A DNA stretch of 64,000 nucleotides from a virus. The stretch lies in the IMG/VR virus record IMGVR_UViG_3300050020_000030, positions 24,640 to 88,639 of that record; one strand, given 5' to 3'. A program made the position numbers and the translations under genes. This document shows, piece after piece, positions 1,319 to 62,109 of this stretch; the first letter of the stretch is position 1, and every line of letters starts with the position of its first letter. Under the pieces are notes generated by a model that saw only the letters and a list, made by a program, of their open reading frames with translations, searched no databases and was not told the DNA's origin.

Positions 1319-1485
1319 TATATACGGAGGCTTCCGTTTCTGATCCAGCCTTCGTTGTTGTAGCGGAGGAAATTTTTCCAGATAAAAGTCCAGTCCGTTA
1401 TAGCGATTTCAGCGTTTTGAAATCCATCATTGCTCAAGTAGAAGGAACTCCCGGATACAACACCGGGGTGTATTTTAGGAACTAA
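1291..1485 (+). CDS. Hypothetical small protein
   Basis: 64 aa, starting inside the last codons of the GIY-YIG gene in another frame; AGGA lies five bases before the ATG. It opens with a strand-like segment (KFVIYTEASVSDPAF) and has no domain I recognise. It is followed after 10 bases by another small gene, so it probably belongs to the virion operon that the endonuclease invaded. Confidence 0.55.
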   Translation: MHSSPRKFVIYTEASVSDPAFVVVAEEIFPDKSPVRYSDFSVLKSIIAQVEGTPGYNTGVYFRN

Positions 1486-1495
1486 AAGGAAACCC

Positions 1496-1639
1496 ATGCC
1501 TGACGAAAAAGTTGTAGTTCCCGCAGTGGCTCCGGTTGTAGCGGCTCCCGCCGTTCCCGCCCCTGAAAAATATGTCACCCTCGAAAAGTTTGCAAAACTG
1601 GTAACTCTACTTGCCGATCATGGCATTCATCTGAAGTAG
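1496..1639 (+). CDS. Hypothetical 47-aa protein, Pro/Ala/Val-rich N-terminus
   Basis: Short ORF with the ribosome site AAGGAAA before ATG 1496. The first 20 residues are a Val-Pro-Ala run; the rest (KYVTLEKFAKLVTLLADHG) looks like one amphipathic helix. No recognised family. The pattern of flexible arm plus helix suggests a small virion or scaffold-type protein, but nothing proves it. Confidence 0.55.
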   Translation: MPDEKVVVPAVAPVVAAPAVPAPEKYVTLEKFAKLVTLLADHGIHLK

Positions 1640-1831
1640 GGCGGTTTCTAGCGGGATTCGACAGGGCCTATCCTTGGCCGGTGACTCCCTGAAGATTGTT
1701 TGGTCTCGCAAATACATTCCAAGGCTACCGTAGGCACACCGCCTACTATTCCGGAAAATGGACTAGCGGGCCAAGACCTTTCAAGACCTCCCGCAAAATT
1801 ACTCCCCGCCCCTTCAATTTCTTGGAGACCA

Positions 1832-2023
1832 ATGAAAAAGATTTTTATACTGTGCTTCCTTGCGCTGATCCTCGCCTGTGGGATTAAGGCTAACGCTACC
1901 ACCTACTGTGTCCACTATACCAAGTGGACTATCGGTTTGGATGGAGTAGACGTGTACCTTATGGCGCAGTGCTCCGTTAATGGCATTTGGCAAGACCCTT
2001 ATGCCATCGCTCAAATCTACTAA
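1832..2023 (+). CDS. Small exported protein with signal peptide
   Basis: 63 aa. It begins MKKIFILCFLALILACGIKA, a typical Sec signal (charged start, hydrophobic core, small residues before the cut), followed by about 40 residues with two cysteines. ATG 1832 is chosen because GGAG lies eight bases upstream and the signal peptide starts there. The same frame is open back to about 1691 (Pro-rich, TTG start at 1700), so a longer form is possible. Interval 1640-1831 otherwise holds only a local hairpin (GTAGGC/GCCTAC near 1731). Function unknown. Confidence 0.6.
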   Translation: MKKIFILCFLALILACGIKANATTYCVHYTKWTIGLDGVDVYLMAQCSVNGIWQDPYAIAQIY

Positions 2024-2033
2024 GAGGTAATAT

Positions 2034-2429
2034 ATGTCCGTTACTGCCCAAGCTGTAGGTTCCGTAAAACTCACAAATAACTTAACGGGCGCGAACTCGT
2101 TCACAACTCCTCTTAACCTCGCTTACGCCGGGACGCTCTCCTCGTATGCTCAGGGATTTGCTATCGCTTCTACCCCCACGACAATTTCAGTTCCTAATCT
2201 GAGCGGGCAGTTTCTGTACATCAAGAACCTCGCATCGATAGCGGGGCAGAATGTTTTGGTCACCTGGACGCCACAGGGCGGCTCTACAGAGTCAGCCCTT
2301 ACTTTGTCCGCAGGAGCCTCGATCATCTTCTGTGAAAGCGATACGACAAACGGGATCACCGCCCTTTCTCTTACCGCAACAGGAACTACCACCACAGGAA
2401 CCACCGTCGAATTTCTCTTGGTAGGATAA
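2034..2429 (+). CDS. Putative virion decoration/head-fibre type protein
   Basis: 131 aa, ATG preceded by GAGG. The sequence is beta-rich, Thr/Ser/Ala/Gly-rich, without cysteines in the core and without an export signal (..SVPNLSGQFLYIKNLAS.., ends ..TTVEFLLVG). This composition is typical of phage surface or decoration proteins. It lies just after the presumed capsid gene. The specific role is not recognisable. Confidence 0.5.
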   Translation: MSVTAQAVGSVKLTNNLTGANSFTTPLNLAYAGTLSSYAQGFAIASTPTTISVPNLSGQFLYIKNLASIAGQNVLVTWTPQGGSTESALTLSAGASIIFCESDTTNGITALSLTATGTTTTGTTVEFLLVG

Positions 2430-2431
2430 TT

Positions 2432-3046
2432 TTGGACATCCCGGTGCTCTACCTAATCCGTCACGGACAAACGAAGCCCAACGCCGCCAACCAGTTTCGT
2501 GGGGATTCCGATGTCCCTCTGACCCCAAAAGGTCGTAAAGACGCTGAGGACGTTGCCGAATTCCTAAAGGGAATCGAGCCTAGCTTTATTATATCATCGG
2601 ACAGGTCCCGAGCGATAGAAACTACGCAAATTCTTCAGAAATATTTTGATGCTCCCGTACATACGTCCCCCGAACTTCGAGCATGGGATGTGGGGGAATT
2701 TACCGGAAAGCCCCGCAATAAAGAAAACTTGGCGGAGATTCAGAAGTATATAGATGATCCTTGTCTCACCGTTCCGGGCGGGGAATCTTTAGCAGAATTT
2801 GCATCGCGGACTATGCCCGCGATTGATGAGTGTTTTCAACTAGCCAACTGCCACGGAGTGGGGTTCGTCGTCGCACACAGTTCGGTAATCCATCAACTGG
2901 GTTCTGATCTGTTAGGAAGCCACACGGCCCTAGTGGTAGACCCCGGTGGGGTTGTTCTGGTAGGACTATCTGGCGAGGGTTGTTCCGAAGCAGAAGCAAT
3001 CTTCAAACCAATGGAAAAAGAAGAAAATTCAGAAAGTATCTCGTAA
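2432..3046 (+). CDS. Histidine phosphatase family protein (phosphoglycerate mutase-like)
   Basis: 204 aa. Residues 7-13 (YLIRHGQ) hold the RHG signature with the phosphorylated His; SSDRSRAIETT (about 55-65) supplies the family arginine; ELRAWDVGEF fits the proton-donor Glu region; VVAHSSVIHQL (about 145) carries the second catalytic His. The family hydrolyses phosphate esters of small molecules or proteins. The start is TTG at 2432, one base after the TAA of the previous gene, with TAGGA upstream. It sits between two virion-type genes, an unusual place for a metabolic enzyme. Substrate unknown. Confidence 0.88.
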   Translation: MDIPVLYLIRHGQTKPNAANQFRGDSDVPLTPKGRKDAEDVAEFLKGIEPSFIISSDRSRAIETTQILQKYFDAPVHTSPELRAWDVGEFTGKPRNKENLAEIQKYIDDPCLTVPGGESLAEFASRTMPAIDECFQLANCHGVGFVVAHSSVIHQLGSDLLGSHTALVVDPGGVVLVGLSGEGCSEAEAIFKPMEKEENSESIS

Positions 3047-3086
3047 AGTAGTTCATAGTCGGTCTGACCGAATAAGGAGAAACATC

Positions 3087-3797
3087 TTGGCAAATTTTGA
3101 TACAATCGATGCACACGTAGGTGGCACAGGCCGCGAACAAATCAATGTTCTTACCCTTACCTCCGCAACTGAAACCCTTCTCTTGATGGGTACTGACACT
3201 TCCGGTACGACGGTCACCGCCGTTCTTGGAGTTCCCACAGGATCACGTACTGACGCCTCGGGACATACTCTTCTGTATGGTGCGGGTGCTCCCGTCGAGT
3301 TTAACCAGAATGGGGCAGTTAGCTCCCAGAGCAAGGGCCGCAAGGCTTCTGTGTTTACCGCGTCCCCGAATTTCTCTGTCAGTACGTTTGACTCTGGTCG
3401 TCCGTTCCGGATCAGACTTTTTGGGACCGCCTCGGTAGCCGCAGTTACTGTTACTACGGTAACTAACTCAATCGTGGTGGCAATTTATCAGGGAACTGCA
3501 ATCGTGGCTACTCGTCAGGTTTCTATCCTTACAGCGGGCGGAAGCTCTACTAGCACGACCGCTGCCGCAGTGGGTCAGTTCTTCTTGGATACCACCGTGC
3601 AGTGGGACTCGGTAAATCAGGTTCTTGGTGGCTGGTACGGCGGAAACGCTCTTAACACCCTCACCGCGTTTCACGCGCTGGGTAACGCCGTGTCGGTTAC
3701 TACGGCCAACAACCTTCAGTTCTGTGCGTCGGCTACCTTCGGTCACGCAGAGGGTGGTACGGTCACGGTTTCTGAATTCTCGATTGAACAGGTTTGA
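3087..3797 (+). CDS. Putative virion structural protein
   Basis: 236 aa, TTG start at 3087 behind AAGGAGAAACATC. Beta-rich, Thr/Val/Gly/Ser-rich, with long alternating strands (TVTTVTNSIVVAIYQGTAIV) and no cysteine cluster or export signal. Resembles phage head-decoration or fibre proteins in composition only. It follows the phosphatase gene with a 40-base gap that contains no promoter I can see. Confidence 0.5.
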   Translation: MANFDTIDAHVGGTGREQINVLTLTSATETLLLMGTDTSGTTVTAVLGVPTGSRTDASGHTLLYGAGAPVEFNQNGAVSSQSKGRKASVFTASPNFSVSTFDSGRPFRIRLFGTASVAAVTVTTVTNSIVVAIYQGTAIVATRQVSILTAGGSSTSTTAAAVGQFFLDTTVQWDSVNQVLGGWYGGNALNTLTAFHALGNAVSVTTANNLQFCASATFGHAEGGTVTVSEFSIEQV

Positions 3798-3871
3798 TGA
3801 CTTTAGTAATTACTTTTGATTACTTTAATCTGAACAGTTCTCATAAAAGAGTATCATTATACCGGAATTTG

Positions 3872-3880
3872 TGATATAAT
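3872..3880 (+). promoter_or_regulatory. Extended -10 promoter giving a leaderless HNH mRNA
   Basis: TGATATAAT (3872-3880) is an extended -10 element; no good -35 is visible 17 bases upstream. The first base of the ATG at 3887 lies seven bases after the -10, the usual transcription start, and there is no ribosome binding site, so the message is probably leaderless. The stretch 3798-3886 contains nothing else. Confidence 0.6.
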
Positions 3881-3886
3881 GGTATA

Positions 3887-4633
3887 ATGAGTAAAATTAA
3901 AGATTTGACTAATCAAAAGTTCGGGAAGCTGACGGCAATAAAAAGAATAGGGGCTACGAAGCAGGGGGCTTCCCTGTGGTTGTGTAAATGCGACTGCGGG
4001 GAAACTTCCGAGGTTCGGGCAGCAAGCCTCCTTAACAAATCCACGCAGAGTTGTGGATGTTCTAAAGTAGAAAACGCCAAGAAGAGGATTCTTGACCTTA
4101 CCGGACAAAAGTTTGGAAGACTCCTAGTAACAGGACCCACCGATAAACGAGTTACCGGAAGAATCTGTTGGGAATGCCTATGTGACTGTGGGAAAACAAA
4201 AGCAGTTATCTCTAACAACTTGGTACGAGGTATCGCTACGAGTTGCGGGTGCTATAATTTAGAACTTATACGAGGAAACAAATTTGCCTCCACTCTGGAG
4301 TCTGGGGTGAAATATCTTTTAGAAATATACAGAAGTAATGCTCAGACGAAAGACCGGAGCTTTTGCCTCTCTTTTGAGGAGTTTAAAAATTTAACCTCAT
4401 CTCCGTGCCATTATTGTGGGTCTATGCCCTCAAAGGTGGCTAAAAGTAGAAAAGCCCGCATTCCATATACGTACAACGGGATAGACCGGAAAAACAACGA
4501 TGTTGGGTACGAAATAGATAATTGTCTTCCCTGTTGTTCGTTCTGTAACCATGCTAAGCACATTTTATCCTATGAAGATTTCCTATCTTGGATTCAACGT
4601 TTAGTTCAATTTAACCTTCATCGAGGCAACTGA
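3887..4633 (+). CDS. HNH homing endonuclease with two zinc-ribbon DNA-binding repeats
   Basis: 248 aa. Two tandem N-terminal modules share the pattern 'LTxQKFGxLxxxxxxG...WxCxCDCGxT...V...L......SCGC' (about residues 6-58 and 70-122), known from phage HNH endonucleases as DNA-binding units. The nuclease part follows: CHYCG, then YNGIDRKNNDVGYEIDN and CCSFCNHAK, i.e. zinc-binding cysteines around a catalytic strand-turn-helix. It is inserted between virion genes with its own promoter and probably spreads by cutting alleles lacking it. The last base overlaps the next ATG (TGATG). Confidence 0.88.
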   Translation: MSKIKDLTNQKFGKLTAIKRIGATKQGASLWLCKCDCGETSEVRAASLLNKSTQSCGCSKVENAKKRILDLTGQKFGRLLVTGPTDKRVTGRICWECLCDCGKTKAVISNNLVRGIATSCGCYNLELIRGNKFASTLESGVKYLLEIYRSNAQTKDRSFCLSFEEFKNLTSSPCHYCGSMPSKVAKSRKARIPYTYNGIDRKNNDVGYEIDNCLPCCSFCNHAKHILSYEDFLSWIQRLVQFNLHRGN

Positions 4634-56859: not shown

Positions 56860-56888
56860 ATACTACCATTGTTCTTGTCCCGTGTCAA
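56860..56888 (-). promoter_or_regulatory. Early promoter, TTGACACGGG type
   Basis: Minus strand TTGACA (56888-56883), 17-base spacer ending in TGG, TAGTAT (56865-56860), then TAAAGAGTGAGG. It overlaps the last codons of the GIY-YIG gene. Confidence 0.78.
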
Positions 56889-57658
56889 GAGATTTCTAAC
56901 AGTTGGTTTTCTGCTTCTTGCTTTTTTCTAAGCCTAGCCGCCGCTCGTCCCAATGTGGAGGCCAGCACCCTCTCCGGGGAGTATTTTTTACCGCTGTTGG
57001 ATTTTCTAATCTTGTCACGGGTCTCCTCTGATGGAGTGTAGCTCGTTTTCCCTAGTTTAGATTTTCGTATCTTTTCTCTGGCCTCCTCCGAACAGGGATG
57101 TCCCGGCTTTCCTTTTCTCGATACAGACATCTTGTCTCGGGTCTCTTGCGTAACTATCCTATTTCGGTTAGCTGCCGCCAAAAGTGCGGCGTGCTCCGGG
57201 GTTCTGGGAGGCATTGGCTTTCCTAAACGGGCCTTGCTTTGCTTCTCTCTAGTTTCCGGAGTAGCTTTCCTTCCTCTGTTAGAGTTTCCTATTTTCTCTC
57301 TAGTCTCCTTGTTAGAAACAACACCATCTCCCCCGAGGGTACTGTTATACCCAAAAGACCTCTTATGTGAGGCGAACATCCATATAAAAAATCTCTCTGC
57401 CTCGTCTAGAGCGTGCTTGTCCGGACAACTGCACAGAAGAAAAGACTCGAAGTTTTCTGACCCGTACTTTCTGACCGCATTATAAAAATAGGTATTTATA
57501 ACCGATTTAGTAGTCAGAATCCCCGCCTTAGTAAAATGGTTTTTTACCCTCTTTTTCCAAGTTACAGTAGTTTGTCCTACGTAGATTTTCCTATTTATCT
57601 TGTTAAGGATGAGGTAGATACCCCCGTACTCCTTTTTATCCAAACTTTTCACTTTCAT
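56885..57658 (-). CDS. GIY-YIG homing endonuclease with NUMOD3 repeats
   Basis: 257 aa. GGIYLILNKI and RKIYVGQTT strands, Arg-containing helix WKKRVKNHF, Glu in DEAERFFIWMF. The C-terminal half is at least four NUMOD3-type repeats ('S.ETREKI..S..GRK', 'TPETREKQSKARLGK', 'EEAREKIRKSKLGK', 'EETRDKIRKSNSGKK'). Coupled by overlap to the recombinase gene, so it may home near this locus. Confidence 0.9.
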   Translation of the reverse strand: MKVKSLDKKEYGGIYLILNKINRKIYVGQTTVTWKKRVKNHFTKAGILTTKSVINTYFYNAVRKYGSENFESFLLCSCPDKHALDEAERFFIWMFASHKRSFGYNSTLGGDGVVSNKETREKIGNSNRGRKATPETREKQSKARLGKPMPPRTPEHAALLAAANRNRIVTQETRDKMSVSRKGKPGHPCSEEAREKIRKSKLGKTSYTPSEETRDKIRKSNSGKKYSPERVLASTLGRAAARLRKKQEAENQLLEIS

Positions 57659-58542
57659 TTTGTTTCTCCGTAAAACAGTTCCACAATTTTAGGCACCCAC
57701 TCCCTGTCACACCCGAGAGTAGCCATACAGTAAATTCCTAAAGTTATCGAGGACGTACTGTTATGCCCCGCACGGTACCCAACCACCCTTTCCGGAATTT
57801 TTAGGTCGAGAAGCAGGGACGTGATGTTCCCTCGCCTAAAAGCGTGCGGGGACTTGTACTTAACCCCCGCCTTAGTGCACACCTTCTGGATCATCTTCAT
57901 CAGCTTTGTGGGATAGCACATTCTGTCGTCCGGTTTCCGGAAAATAAATTCCTCTGGCCCACCAAGAATCAGATGCTTGAGTTCCCGTACAAGTTCGTCC
58001 GAGATACATATCGATCTTACTGAGGAATCTGTCTTGGGGGAGTCCTGTAAAAATCCTTGGGATACGTCTCTCCGGATGTGCAGAGTATTCCCTTCAAGGT
58101 CCTGTGTTTGTAGCCCGAGGACTTCTCCTATCCGGACCCCTGTTTCGCAGAATAGCATGATAAGGGCTTTGTCCTCCCCTGTAGCCGCTTTGATTAAATC
58201 TCTCATCTCCTGGGTAGTATAGAAGTCCTGCTGCTTTCGTCTTTTGCGGGGCAAAGTCAGTCGAGGAAGTACAAATTCTTCGTCGGCCCACATGCAGATA
58301 CTCCGGAAAACGGAAATGTACCTGCGGATAGCCGCCGCACCTATAGTCATATTCAGCTTACCAATGTACCTCTGGATCAACTTCTTGTCTATACTAGAAA
58401 TTTTCAGGTGGCCGAATTCCAAGACAAGTTTTTGGATCAAGTAGTTTAGGTTGTAATACGTGCTCGCTTTCTTCATAGAAAGAACTTCTGTCTTATAGTT
58501 ATCCGCAGCGATCATAAAGATGGAAGACTCTCTAGATTTCAC
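57655..58542 (-). CDS. Tyrosine recombinase / integrase
   Basis: 295 aa, GTG start overlapping the upstream TGA. All active-site residues are visible: Arg137 (TGVRIGEVLG), Lys170, His233 and Arg236 (HAFRRG), His260 (RAGHN) and nucleophile Tyr271. N-terminal SAM-like helices at 20-90. Could integrate the genome, resolve multimers or invert DNA. No attachment site or repressor is seen in the window. Confidence 0.88.
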   Translation of the reverse strand: MKSRESSIFMIAADNYKTEVLSMKKASTYYNLNYLIQKLVLEFGHLKISSIDKKLIQRYIGKLNMTIGAAAIRRYISVFRSICMWADEEFVLPRLTLPRKRRKQQDFYTTQEMRDLIKAATGEDKALIMLFCETGVRIGEVLGLQTQDLEGNTLHIRRDVSQGFLQDSPKTDSSVRSICISDELVRELKHLILGGPEEFIFRKPDDRMCYPTKLMKMIQKVCTKAGVKYKSPHAFRRGNITSLLLDLKIPERVVGYRAGHNSTSSITLGIYCMATLGCDREWVPKIVELFYGETK

Positions 58543-58979: not shown

Positions 58980-59008
58980 AGAATACCACTATACCCTGCC
59001 CGTGTCAA
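58980..59008 (-). promoter_or_regulatory. Early promoter, TTGACACGGG type
   Basis: Minus strand TTGACA (59008-59003), 17-base spacer ending in TGG, TATTCT (58985-58980). The -35 overlaps the stop of the DNA polymerase gene. Confidence 0.75.
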
Positions 59009-62000
59009 CCCTTAGTATAATATAAAGATTCCATACCTTCCGCGCCTAGTAAAAAATCTGATGCCCAAGGAGGAGCCGTTGTCATACACTCTACTAGCTC
59101 CTTTACTCCGAGGGGGGAGTCTTCATCCACTTCGGCCACGATTTCGTCGTGACAAGTTAGTACGATCTGGAAGCCCATATTTTTGGCTAGGTGCATTCCG
59201 TAAAACAGAATATCCCGGCAAAAAGCCTGCACGATGTTTTCGAAAGTCTTAGCCCCCCTAGTCTCTATACTCGTCCATTGGTGAGTGACTTGCGAGATGC
59301 CGTCCACACGGAGATCAGCTTTTCGGTAAGAATTACCCTTACGGGAGGTGGCGTCTACCCACGTTACCGAGGGGTTAATATAGTGCAGAGCGCGGCCCGA
59401 GGGTAGCCAGACACAGAGTACCCGGCCCTTCATTTCTAGGCGGATAGGCCCTAGTTCGGCGGTCGTATCGTTTTCCACGACTCTAGCGAAAGCCCGGTGG
59501 AGATCGTACCAGTACTGTTCTACCTCTCGGTATGTATTTCTGTAGACCTGTACCGCCTTTTCTGCATACTCTAAGGTAAGTTCAATACCCATATTTTCCG
59601 CGTAAGCAAGCAAGCCAGTCTTAACCGAGTTACCCTCTTCATCTGTAGTTTCTTCGCCCGCACTAAGTCCGTACCCGCAGTTATGAACAATCAGGGGACC
59701 CTTCTCCGTCAGGATCGTGAACCGACTCCTCGGACCCGAGTTTAGAATGTCGAACGTAGGCACCCCGGCATTGGGACTGTTCTGCAATGATCCTTTCTGG
59801 AGAGAATCCTTTGTTGATTTTTCGGCAGACGTTTCCGCACTCCCGGTACTGGGGGCAGTATCTTTCCCAGAACTCAACGGCAGAAAGTTTTTCTCCCAGA
59901 TAGTGGATGTAGCAAAGGTTTTCTTTATTCCTCCCATTAACTTTTGAGGTAACAAATCGAAGATTCCCTTTTTCATAATGGCCGTCATTATCTTCTCGGT
60001 CGATCTGGTACGCGGGCTTGTCATAGTTCTTAAGGGTAAGGCAGTGTCCGATGAAATCGTACACATCCTCAAATTTGCACTGAATCCCCCGTCCTCCGTA
60101 GCGATGAGCGGCAGAACCGACTCCCCGGCAGCGCGACAGAATCGCGTAGTACCTGTTCGCCAGCCGGTCAATAAGTTCTCTAGGTTCCGAAAATCTGACG
60201 TATACTCCGTTCTGGTCTTCCTGAACCTTTTTTCGGGCACAAGGGAGGCAACGACTTGTCTTACCCTTTTCAAGATTCTCCCTATTGACCAGTTTTTCGG
60301 AGCCGCAGACCCCGCATCGGCAAGGGTAACTGAGGTATTTTTTAACCTTCTGAGCGAGTCCGGTAGTAACCCACTCGCCAAATTTATAGCCGACCTCTCG
60401 TAGAGGCCACTTTGCGTCACTTCGCACGCTTCTTTCCACCCTTCTTCTGTAAGAATCCCGTGCTCCGGAGTAACATCTACTCGGAGCAGGTTGATAACTT
60501 TCTTGTCCCCCTGATACACACAACCATCGTGAGACACCCATTCACCGCCATCCCACAGCTTATCCTCTAAGGTAACGTTCACAATCTTCTTTACCCCGTG
60601 GTTGGTAAGGACCATAGTATCTTCACCGAAACATCCGAGGGTAGGCGCTTTAGCGTTTGTCCTAGCGGTCTTATCCCCCGCCTTATACGTCTCCCACAAC
60701 TCCTCGTAGGTAGCGTGACCATCCATTTGTGCTGCAAAAGCAATATAAGGGTCTCTCCCCTGACGAAACACTTCCAGAAGAGGTTCGCACTCTGTAACCC
60801 ATCCGGCTCCACGAGCTTCGATAGCGGAGAGATCGGCAATCACGAACTTCTTCCCCGGAGCCGCACACAAAATCGGGCGCAAGGCCGCACAAGCCACGTC
60901 TAGCGGGCTACTAAAATTTTTCTTGATTCCCTCATAATCCCCTGATTTTAATAGGGATAAAGCGAGATCGAATTTTCCGCCCACTTCCTTGGATGCCTTC
61001 ACGAGATTCTGCACTTGCACCAGCCCGGAAGTCATGCGCCCGGTTCTAGCCGCCCCCATAAAATGGAACAATCCGCGAACCCTACCATCTGACATGATAG
61101 AAGCCCGGTATGCGTCCAGCTTACTAACCGAACTTTTACTGAGTTGTAGCCTAAGTTCCAGAGCTTTCCGGCACTGTTCATTTAGATCACACTCCCCGTT
61201 CAAAGCCCGCTTGATAAAGGGCTTTCCGATAGACAGAAAAGTGTACCCGTTCTGTCTGGCATACGCCAGCACCTGAACCGGGGACTTGGGGTTCTTGATG
61301 CCTGTAAGTTCGAGAAACTGTTTGGTAAGAGCCGATTGCTCTTTTTCTACGACTATACTCGCCCCCTGTAGAAGCACCGAGTCCGTGTAGATTCCATAGT
61401 CGTTGATTTCTTCTGATAGCGCGAAGTTTTCATATTCCCAGTCCGGAAGAGGAAAGTCCTTTAGCCGGTGCAGGATTTCCCGCATAGCTTCTACGTCCGT
61501 TTTGCAGTAATCACAGAAGCGGGAATACTCCTTAACATGGGTATCCCAGTCACGATAGGAAGTCGGCTCAATTCCGAAGAGGGTTAGCTCCCCGCCAAAC
61601 CGAAGGGGCTTGCAGAAAAGATCGACCATGCTAACATCTTTTACAAAAAATTCGGTCAGCTTCTTGGACTTGATATCCAGAATCTTGCCCACTTTTTCCA
61701 GCTTACCGGGCATACTCATAGCCCGACTCAGGATCATCGGGTCAATAAATCTATCAACCGGAATATCAATATCAAAAAATCTTTTTATGGCAAGGCGTTC
61801 AAACTGACAATTGTGAGCGACGATTATTTGAAAAGGGTCCTGCAACCCCTGAAGTAAGTCTTCCGGGATAGGACCCTTGTGGCATTCCCATAGCTGTACG
61901 TCGGCATCCCCCCACGCATAAGCAAACATGAGGAGTTCGCAGCTAGGATGATCTATGTATTTGTATGCCCCAGTTGTCGAGATATCCAGTTCGTTCCGTG

Positions 62001-62025
62001 TTTCGAGGTCGATATGCAGAAGCAT
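59005..62025 (-). CDS. Family A DNA polymerase with intein
   Basis: 1006 aa precursor, about 690 aa mature. 3'-5' exonuclease: HIDLETR (4-10) and HNCQFERLAI, DYCKTDVEAM. Polymerase: motif A DLSAIEARG (398-406), motif B RTNAKAPTLG/CGYG (455-786, split by the intein), motif C CHDEIVAEV (958-966). T7 gp5-type layout with no 5' nuclease. An intein occupies residues 465-782. ATG 62025 follows AAAAGGATAAA. Replicates the phage genome with the encoded primase-helicase. Confidence 0.92.
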   Translation of the reverse strand: MLLHIDLETRNELDISTTGAYKYIDHPSCELLMFAYAWGDADVQLWECHKGPIPEDLLQGLQDPFQIIVAHNCQFERLAIKRFFDIDIPVDRFIDPMILSRAMSMPGKLEKVGKILDIKSKKLTEFFVKDVSMVDLFCKPLRFGGELTLFGIEPTSYRDWDTHVKEYSRFCDYCKTDVEAMREILHRLKDFPLPDWEYENFALSEEINDYGIYTDSVLLQGASIVVEKEQSALTKQFLELTGIKNPKSPVQVLAYARQNGYTFLSIGKPFIKRALNGECDLNEQCRKALELRLQLSKSSVSKLDAYRASIMSDGRVRGLFHFMGAARTGRMTSGLVQVQNLVKASKEVGGKFDLALSLLKSGDYEGIKKNFSSPLDVACAALRPILCAAPGKKFVIADLSAIEARGAGWVTECEPLLEVFRQGRDPYIAFAAQMDGHATYEELWETYKAGDKTARTNAKAPTLGCFGEDTMVLTNHGVKKIVNVTLEDKLWDGGEWVSHDGCVYQGDKKVINLLRVDVTPEHGILTEEGWKEACEVTQSGLYERSAINLASGLLPDSLRRLKNTSVTLADAGSAAPKNWSIGRILKRVRQVVASLVPEKRFRKTRTEYTSDFRNLENLLTGWRTGTTRFCRAAGESVLPLIATEDGGFSANLRMCTISSDTALPLRTMTSPRTRSTEKIMTAIMKKGIFDLLPQKLMGGIKKTFATSTIWEKNFLPLSSGKDTAPSTGSAETSAEKSTKDSLQKGSLQNSPNAGVPTFDILNSGPRSRFTILTEKGPLIVHNCGYGLSAGEETTDEEGNSVKTGLLAYAENMGIELTLEYAEKAVQVYRNTYREVEQYWYDLHRAFARVVENDTTAELGPIRLEMKGRVLCVWLPSGRALHYINPSVTWVDATSRKGNSYRKADLRVDGISQVTHQWTSIETRGAKTFENIVQAFCRDILFYGMHLAKNMGFQIVLTCHDEIVAEVDEDSPLGVKELVECMTTAPPWASDFLLGAEGMESLYYTKG
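59680..60633 (-). mobile_element. DNA polymerase intein carrying an out-of-frame endonuclease
   Basis: 318 residues. Starts CFGEDTMVLTNHGVKKIVNV, block B RVDVTPEHGILTEEGW, and ends PTFDILNSGPRSRF .. GPLIVHN before extein Cys. Between about residues 550 and 752 the intein frame is Ser/Thr/Arg/Lys-rich and matches no fold. A complete HNH endonuclease lies there in a different frame. Confidence 0.88.
59681..60427 (-). CDS. HNH homing endonuclease nested out of frame in the polymerase intein
   Basis: 248 aa from GTG 60427 (AAGGGTGG eight bases upstream; the frame is open from 60541). Zinc DNA-binding start GYKFGEWVTTGLAQKV .. YPCRCGVCGSEKL .. RCLPCARKK; HNH core HRYGGRGIQCKFEDVYDF, YQIDREDNDGHYEKGNLR, FVTSKVNGRN (60109-59921); C-terminal KINKGFSPERII, as in phage HNH homing enzymes. 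The frame is shifted by two bases from the intein frame and ends four bases before the intein does. The start codon is inferred. Confidence 0.8.
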   Translation of the reverse strand: MRSDAKWPLREVGYKFGEWVTTGLAQKVKKYLSYPCRCGVCGSEKLVNRENLEKGKTSRCLPCARKKVQEDQNGVYVRFSEPRELIDRLANRYYAILSRCRGVGSAAHRYGGRGIQCKFEDVYDFIGHCLTLKNYDKPAYQIDREDNDGHYEKGNLRFVTSKVNGRNKENLCYIHYLGEKLSAVEFWERYCPQYRECGNVCRKINKGFSPERIIAEQSQCRGAYVRHSKLGSEESVHDPDGEGSPDCS

Positions 62026-62035
62026 TTTATCCTTT

Positions 62036-62109
62036 TGGTTCCGGGTCCACGAATCGAACGTAGGTTAGGAGGATCAAAACCTCCTGTCTTACCACTAAAC
62101 GAACCCGGA
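62036..62109 (-). tRNA. tRNA-Gln(TTG), CCA encoded
   Basis: Minus strand cloverleaf: acceptor TCCGGGT/ACCCGGA, D loop TTTAGTGGTAA, anticodon stem GGAGG/CCTCC with loop TTTTGAT (anticodon TTG), T stem CTACG/CGTGG around TTCGATT, discriminator A and encoded CCA. Lies between the polymerase gene and the gene at 62113. Could supply CAA decoding or replace a cleaved host tRNA. Confidence 0.92.

Follow-up and report, generated by a model that had tools for sequence, protein, structure and literature searches.

An HNH endonuclease gene nested out of frame within the inteins of phage DNA polymerases

In the textbook view, the endonuclease of an intein is an in-frame domain of the intein, and inteins that lack such a domain are mini-inteins that have lost their mobility. 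The family A DNA polymerase gene studied here does not fit this scheme at first sight: The middle part of its intein (blocks B to F) contains no recognisable domain in the polymerase frame, and the same bases, read in another frame of the same strand, specify a protein of the HNH type. Are both frames genes, and if so, how might the nested gene be expressed, and how does it relate to the intein that harbours it? The window, i.e. the whole stretch of DNA that was analysed, comprises 64,000 nucleotides and is part of an IMG/VR virus record of 88,639 bases. The polymerase gene and its intein have the following parts:

59005-62025, minus strand: open reading frame of a family A DNA polymerase (PolA), the host of the intein; 1006 amino acids; Pfam DNA_pol_A E=8e-9, PHROG_17 DNA polymerase 7e-87
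59680-60633, minus strand: intein of 318 amino acids, from Cys1 to His317-Asn318, followed by Cys+1; insertion site ...KAPTLG^CGYG, with the exact empty site in the related loci L169 and L170
60349-60633, minus strand: N-terminal splicing half with block A (CFGEDTMVLT) and block B (TPEH); pLDDT 97-98 for residues 1-90; matches to inteins in the PDB by sequence profile and fold
59767-60348, minus strand: central part of the intein as read in the polymerase frame, rich in Ser, Thr and Arg, free of stops and predicted to be disordered; pLDDT about 37, poorly conserved
59680-59766, minus strand: C-terminal splicing half with block F (FDILNSGPRSRFTI) and block G (LIVHN), then Cys+1; pLDDT about 97, kept in all relatives

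The insert covers residues 465-782 of PolA, with Cys1 at position 60633, and it has the hallmarks of an intein. The nucleophile and the TxxH motif of block B are present (Cys1 and TPEH; the Cys, Thr and His residues are invariant in 35 relatives), and the C-terminus reads VHN^C in the window. Nearly all relatives end in HN^C or HN^S; only rarely is HN replaced by SN (L030, L062 and L073). Sequence profiles match solved mini-inteins in the PDB, and the intein_Nterm model TIGR01445 was detected in 14 of 35 members. The AlphaFold model, with a pLDDT of about 97 at residues 1-90 and 290-318 and of about 37 at residues 100-290, adopts the Hint fold: Its best match to a mini-intein has an E-value of 1.4e-3 at a probability of 1.00, and the top 37 matches of the fold search in the PDB are all inteins or related Hint domains. 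Judged by its blocks and its modelled fold, the insert is a genuine protein-splicing intein; splicing itself is inferred. An earlier note on this DNA had described the middle of the intein as featureless and rich in Ser, Thr and Arg, and this description holds, as this part is free of stops, modelled with low confidence and poorly conserved. The neighbourhood of the polymerase gene contains a tRNA-Gln (ttg) gene directly upstream (62036-62109, minus strand), the only tRNA gene of the window, and, about 1.3 kb downstream, a gene for a GIY-YIG endonuclease with a NUMOD3 motif (56885-57658, minus strand). The latter adjoins a tyrosine integrase gene (57655-58542) and is a second mobile-endonuclease gene near the intein.

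The central claim of the earlier note, a full HNH endonuclease encoded out of frame on the same strand inside this intein, was confirmed. The splicing blocks are intact, and the nested frame is offset by +2 from the frame of the host protein, so that it does not qualify as an in-frame endonuclease domain. Its features are:

59681-60541, minus strand: open HNH frame, 286 codons from the ATG at 60541, offset +2 (equal to -1) relative to the polymerase
59681-60439, minus strand: most likely HNH coding sequence, from GTG 60439 or GTG 60427 to the TAA at 59683-59681; GTG 60439 is the homologue of the one start that L016 can use
60436-60443, minus strand: SD-like sequence AAGGGTGG upstream of GTG 60427; weak when taken alone (p=0.77 in comparison with shuffles)
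60239-60322, minus strand: Cys4-type zinc-binding segment of the HNH protein, CRCGVCG...CLPC; cysteines invariant in 35 relatives
59927-60106, minus strand: HNH-family core HRYGGRGI...QIDREDNDGHYEKGNLRFVTSKVNGRN; Y.xRG, DR, YExGNxRF and N invariant; PHROG_374 HNH endonuclease 2e-21

The TAA stop codon of the HNH frame overlaps the last His-Asn codons of the intein (CA-TAA-C), and the third frame of the same strand is full of stops across the overlap. The HNH protein matches the families PHROG_374 (2e-21) and PHROG_3377 (4e-16), and its model folds well (pLDDT 85.6). The Pfam HNH models gave no credible E-value for any of the nested HNH proteins, whose small, divergent motif may escape detection, and sequence and fold searches of the HNH protein in the PDB returned nothing useful, with no fold match to the HNH model. 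The designation as a nuclease thus rests on the PHROG matches and the motifs. The first 34 to 38 or so of the 286 codons are probably not part of the putative enzyme, since L016, the nearest relative, has two stops in this region.

Could the second frame be open by chance? At the window locus, 9.5 stops are expected in the intein frame if the codons for a fixed HNH protein are shuffled synonymously, and 10.5 in the HNH frame for the reverse shuffle; in neither case was any of 1000 shuffles free of stops. For 60 non-redundant relatives (clustered at 85% at the nucleotide level), the polymerase frame has no stop over the HNH overlap versus 406 expected with the HNH protein fixed, and the HNH frame has none versus 394 expected with the polymerase protein fixed, while 754 stops are present in the third frame. 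The same holds true for a second set of 41 loci (no stops in the polymerase and HNH frames, 533 in the third frame). Eleven free-standing phage HNH homologues served as controls, and all of them contain stops in both other frames of the same strand (3-12 and 6-39 over the matched stretch). The shuffles and these controls rule out a chance open frame, and they bear out the proposal of the earlier note that the double open frame is a sign of selection. An indel or an assembly error as the source of the two frames, the finding that would have refuted the arrangement, is excluded because two further assembled contigs are identical in sequence to the window locus and because the layout recurs in isolate genomes.

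Both frames and their conservation are matters of observation, and their conservation is unequal. In 183 of 183 pairs (62-97% nucleotide identity), the HNH protein is more conserved than the overlapping polymerase-frame sequence, and in every one of these pairs the substitutions cluster at the third codon positions of the HNH frame. For the window and L016, the identities are 66% for the HNH protein and 39% for the polymerase frame, and the differences per codon position are 0.28, 0.19 and 0.53. As far as such substitution patterns can tell, the HNH frame is under purifying selection. The divergence at four-fold sites is 0.55 in the overlap as compared to 0.64 in the exteins (0.62 versus 0.68 for the window and L016). 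With the value for the overlap only slightly below that for the exteins, the polymerase frame seems to demand little more of the linker than freedom from stops, even though horizontal transfer confounds this comparison. In L151 and L152, the HNH region is deleted, leaving mini-inteins of 124 and 168 amino acids, and in L272 it is a relic, indicating that the polymerase frame can do without the overprinted region. Together with L240, these three loci are natural mini-inteins of the same family with a deleted or relic HNH. Homologues with a broken HNH frame and an intact intein had been named in advance as evidence against the arrangement. They do occur (L151, L152, L240 and L272, as well as L054 with one stop), but they are rare deleted or decaying copies of the kind expected in a homing life cycle, and the large majority of the loci keep both frames intact.

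An HNH frame that is putatively coding and lies out of frame inside an intein is common to well over a hundred other phages; we are dealing with a class rather than with a single case. A tblastn search with the HNH protein gave matches in the polymerase genes of Salmonella Jerseyvirus, Dhillonvirus, Pseudomonas MR14, Vibrio 97.13, Streptococcus prophages and Gardnerella AB1, and the HNH was out of frame in all matched polymerase genes. Scans of IMG/VR and of bacterial genomes added many more loci, including contigs assigned to Erwinia, Corynebacterium silvaticum, Lachnospiraceae and Tissierella. For an unbiased sample, 89 inteins were picked by their N-terminal blocks alone, with the HNH ignored. 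Out-of-frame HNH sequences are the rule in this sample: They were present in 83 of the inteins (60 at +2 and 23 at +1); none was in frame, four scored no HNH, and two could not be scored. Among the loci from the tblastn search, the scans and the sampling by intein N-termini, not a single in-frame copy was found. The sets of loci overlap, and the counts describe prevalence and not independent events because the loci are related. In one contig (L095, NZ_JACVEL010000022.1, assigned to Taishania pollutisoli), the hidden HNH is nearly identical to that of Salmonella Jerseyvirus; this contig is likely to be a phage contaminant in a Bacteroidota assembly.

The arrangement is confined neither to one site nor to one host gene. 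In PolA, overprinted inteins are inserted at GK^CELGLGY, LG^CGYG and GGKL^CEN. SNF2-like helicases carry inteins with an HNH at +1 (L044:5980 and L045:7564), whereas the polymerase inteins of the same phages have it at +2, and the terminase-like protein L286 contains two inteins (L286:1762 and L286:3001), each with an out-of-frame HNH at +1. The helicase and terminase-like hosts were identified by eye from sequence. Two inteins, each with a hidden HNH of its own, one at +2 and one at +1, were also seen in the polymerases of L026, L084 and L086. In a tree of the HNH proteins, the +1 arrangement appears in two places: in a clade rich in Bacillota and Actinomycetota that is nested among +2 sequences, and in a four-member clade formed by L026, L084, Caulobacter phage KcrB and L044. 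The latter clade, which represents the third PolA site and the helicase, is placed amid free-standing HNH genes of phages (support 100/99). AU tests did not reject a single origin, neither for the +1 arrangement (p=0.076) nor for the hidden arrangement overall (p=0.22). Thus, the tree suggests repeated capture and multiple origins but does not prove them. We consider it probable, with due reservation, that overprinted inteins form a distinct and widespread class of mobile elements in which a splicing intein is combined with an autonomous homing endonuclease in an overlapping frame. This class would have been assembled more than once, in both alternative frames, at several sites and in at least three types of host genes, and its linker would have been born by overprinting and kept only as a stop-free sequence.

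How could the nested gene be translated? L016 must start at an ATG that is homologous to GTG 60439 of the window; this ATG is preceded by GGAGG, and there are stops just upstream. In the window, GTG 60427 lies four codons past GTG 60439 and has the better SD-like sequence of the two, and the window's own SD is weak and no better than chance. Of 60 loci, 27 have an HNH-frame start behind an SD of at least 5 nt versus 15.3 expected from shuffles (binomial p=0.0008); for the third frame, the count is one. When SD strength was combined across all loci in a summed Fisher test, the result was not significant (p=0.90), and only the count of strong sites was; the SD signal therefore stems from a subset of the loci. 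Most loci of the +1 class have an ATG at nucleotide 145 of the intein behind a purine-rich SD. The typical site, AAAGGAGGT...TATG, lies within the conserved intein segment KEVIxYxG. Here, Tyr is encoded by TAT, which creates the ATG, rather than by TAC in 29 of 35 cases versus 20.9 expected. A conserved slippery site before the overlap was not found; slippery heptamers occur in 6 of the 60 loci at scattered positions. The enrichment of starts preceded by an SD and the lack of conserved slippery sites favour independent initiation over frameshifting, an inference without expression data in which we have moderate confidence. The earlier note had left both routes open. Its frameshift has found no support, and its separate initiation near GTG 60427 gains plausibility from the enrichment of SD-preceded starts, with the amendment that GTG 60439 is a further candidate.

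Several observations speak to the mobility of these elements. L169 and L170, both relatives of the window, have uninterrupted polymerases at exactly the position of the window's intein, and an intein-free allele is also present in Dhillonvirus TheodorHerzl. For the polymerase of EP23, the best 60 listed relatives, many of them Dhillonvirus, are uninterrupted and 98.4-99.3% identical to the joined exteins. The inteins of three Dhillonvirus phages (EP23, SO-1 and AV129) differ at only 7-10 of 897 nucleotides, their exteins at 140-169 of 2292. The low divergence of these inteins could in part reflect the double coding constraint. Between Jerseyvirus and Dhillonvirus, the inteins are 83% identical and the exteins 67-69% over their full length. 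The empty sites and the horizontal spread are directly observed, and the cleavage of empty sites is inferred. The polymerase of MG065648.1 (Campylobacter phage A144) and the joined exteins of EP23 share 99.3% identity, and judging from this sequence the Campylobacter host label looks wrong.

Taken together, we regard it as very likely that the locus is a phage family A polymerase intein whose homing endonuclease is a separate gene nested in another frame; splicing, independent initiation and cleavage remain inferences. Ribosomes translating the polymerase would pass from the Hint-N half through a long linker, free of stops but without meaning, into the Hint-C half, and the intein would be expected to remove itself by splicing. 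Other ribosomes would initiate inside the Hint-N coding region and read the HNH gene in the shifted frame as far as a stop codon of its own, which lies within the Hint-C coding region or shortly upstream of it. Intein-free polymerase alleles would then be cut by the HNH protein, and repair would copy the intein in. The out-of-frame layout may exist because an in-frame stop of the endonuclease would truncate the polymerase. In the +2 class, the terminal His-Asn, encoded as CAT-AAY, supplies the TAA stop in 32 of the 54 inteins counted.

Alternatively, the nested HNH might be a separate selfish gene for which the intein is merely a safe site and which has another target or another role. The site of cleavage is unknown, and the position of the four-member clade among free-standing phage HNH genes (100/99 support) tells us that such genes can move in. 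However, the precise empty sites, the sporadic presence and the inteins that are far more alike than the exteins fit joint homing of intein and HNH, and loss of the HNH is rare (4 of 89); we consider a separate selfish gene unlikely. It is even harder to imagine that the HNH is made by a programmed -1 frameshift in the N-terminal half of the intein, resulting in a polymerase-intein-HNH fusion: A -1 shift would reach the commonest offset (+2, equal to -1), but slippery heptamers are present in only 6 of 60 loci without a conserved place, the +1 class would require another mechanism, and pairs of SD and start are enriched.

HNH genes are common in phage introns. The record of Sodalis phage SO-1 indeed states 'contains type I self-splicing intron', and one may ask whether a group I intron that contains an endonuclease open reading frame accounts for the insert, as the label there implies. 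Rfam scans of the window and six relatives gave no match, the host frame is open across the whole insert, and the intein blocks are conserved, all of which leaves hardly any room for an intron. Just as little speaks for a relic or an artefact, i.e. an endonuclease that was once in frame and was displaced by indels or by errors of assembly. A few degenerate copies exist (L054, L151, L152 and L272), but no in-frame copy is present among the loci examined, the HNH frame bears the marks of purifying selection, and the layout recurs unchanged across several assemblies and numerous isolate genomes.

For the nested homing endonuclease that we favour, the consequences concern both annotation and the study of overprinting. 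Many phage polymerase inteins that resemble dead or oversized mini-inteins, among them the 'intein-containing DNA polymerase precursor' of Salmonella Jerseyvirus, carry a conserved endonuclease in another frame, and this changes the annotation of intein mobility. For overprinting, these loci rank among the larger conserved collections of long overlaps on the same strand, with about 200 codons each in dozens of lineages. Direct tests are within easy reach, as the layout occurs in cultured phages of Salmonella and E. coli that have near-identical intein-free relatives.

Several known systems share parts of this design. In 2009, Dassa et al. reportedly described fractured genes in which an endonuclease gene lies between the two parts of a split intein. 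Here, too, the endonuclease is a separate gene between the intein halves; however, in the fractured genes the intein is split into two genes, whereas our loci have one uninterrupted open reading frame that overlaps the endonuclease. Group I introns of the I-HmuI type in phage DNA polymerase genes resemble the overprinted inteins in that a nested HNH gene has its own start and stop, but they rely on RNA splicing, while protein splicing is inferred here, no intron RNA was detected and the host frame is open. Two recorded phages, Sodalis phage SO-1 (gp38/gp39, NC_013600) and Salmonella phage vB_SenS-Ent1 (HE775250), are members of the overprinted class. The SO-1 record annotates the nested HNH open reading frame as a type I intron and the Ent1 record only the splicing domains, so that neither combines both. 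In SO-1 (L163), the intron label is placed on the nested HNH open reading frame (1349-4537 and 2833-3591), and it appears to be a mis-annotation of an overprinted intein.

Canonical inteins, such as those with a LAGLIDADG endonuclease (e.g. PI-SceI) or the dCTP deaminase intein of cyanophage CL131 with its in-frame HNH_3 (PMC6293099), have in common with our class the Hint domain, an endonuclease between blocks B and F and a conserved site in a replication gene. They differ in that intein and endonuclease form one polypeptide, whereas our class has a separate overlapping gene for the endonuclease. The earlier note knew of no well-described system of this kind, but a related precedent exists in the ShiLan domain, a hidden HNH in an actinophage DNA methylase (Arsenault, Gosselin, Gogarten 2025, PMC11855218). 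As in our loci, the HNH is out of frame in an insert, the host frame is open, the distribution is sporadic, and the insert ends with TAAC, of which TAA is the stop of the HNH gene (PMC11855218). The ShiLan insert has no detectable splicing domain, is thought to be retained in the host protein, and its HNH begins 18 bp into the insert (PMC11855218). By contrast, complete Hint halves flank the HNH in the window, so that our locus meets the ShiLan pattern of an out-of-frame HNH with an open host frame but not its absence of a splicing domain, and the class extends to DNA polymerase, helicase and terminase-like hosts in many phage groups. In the open-access literature, which leaves out subscription papers and bioRxiv, no paper was found that joins a splicing intein and an out-of-frame endonuclease. 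Compared with all of these systems, the overprinted intein with its autonomous endonuclease gene, for which splicing, separate translation and homing are inferred, is a real, widespread and new variant of inteins.
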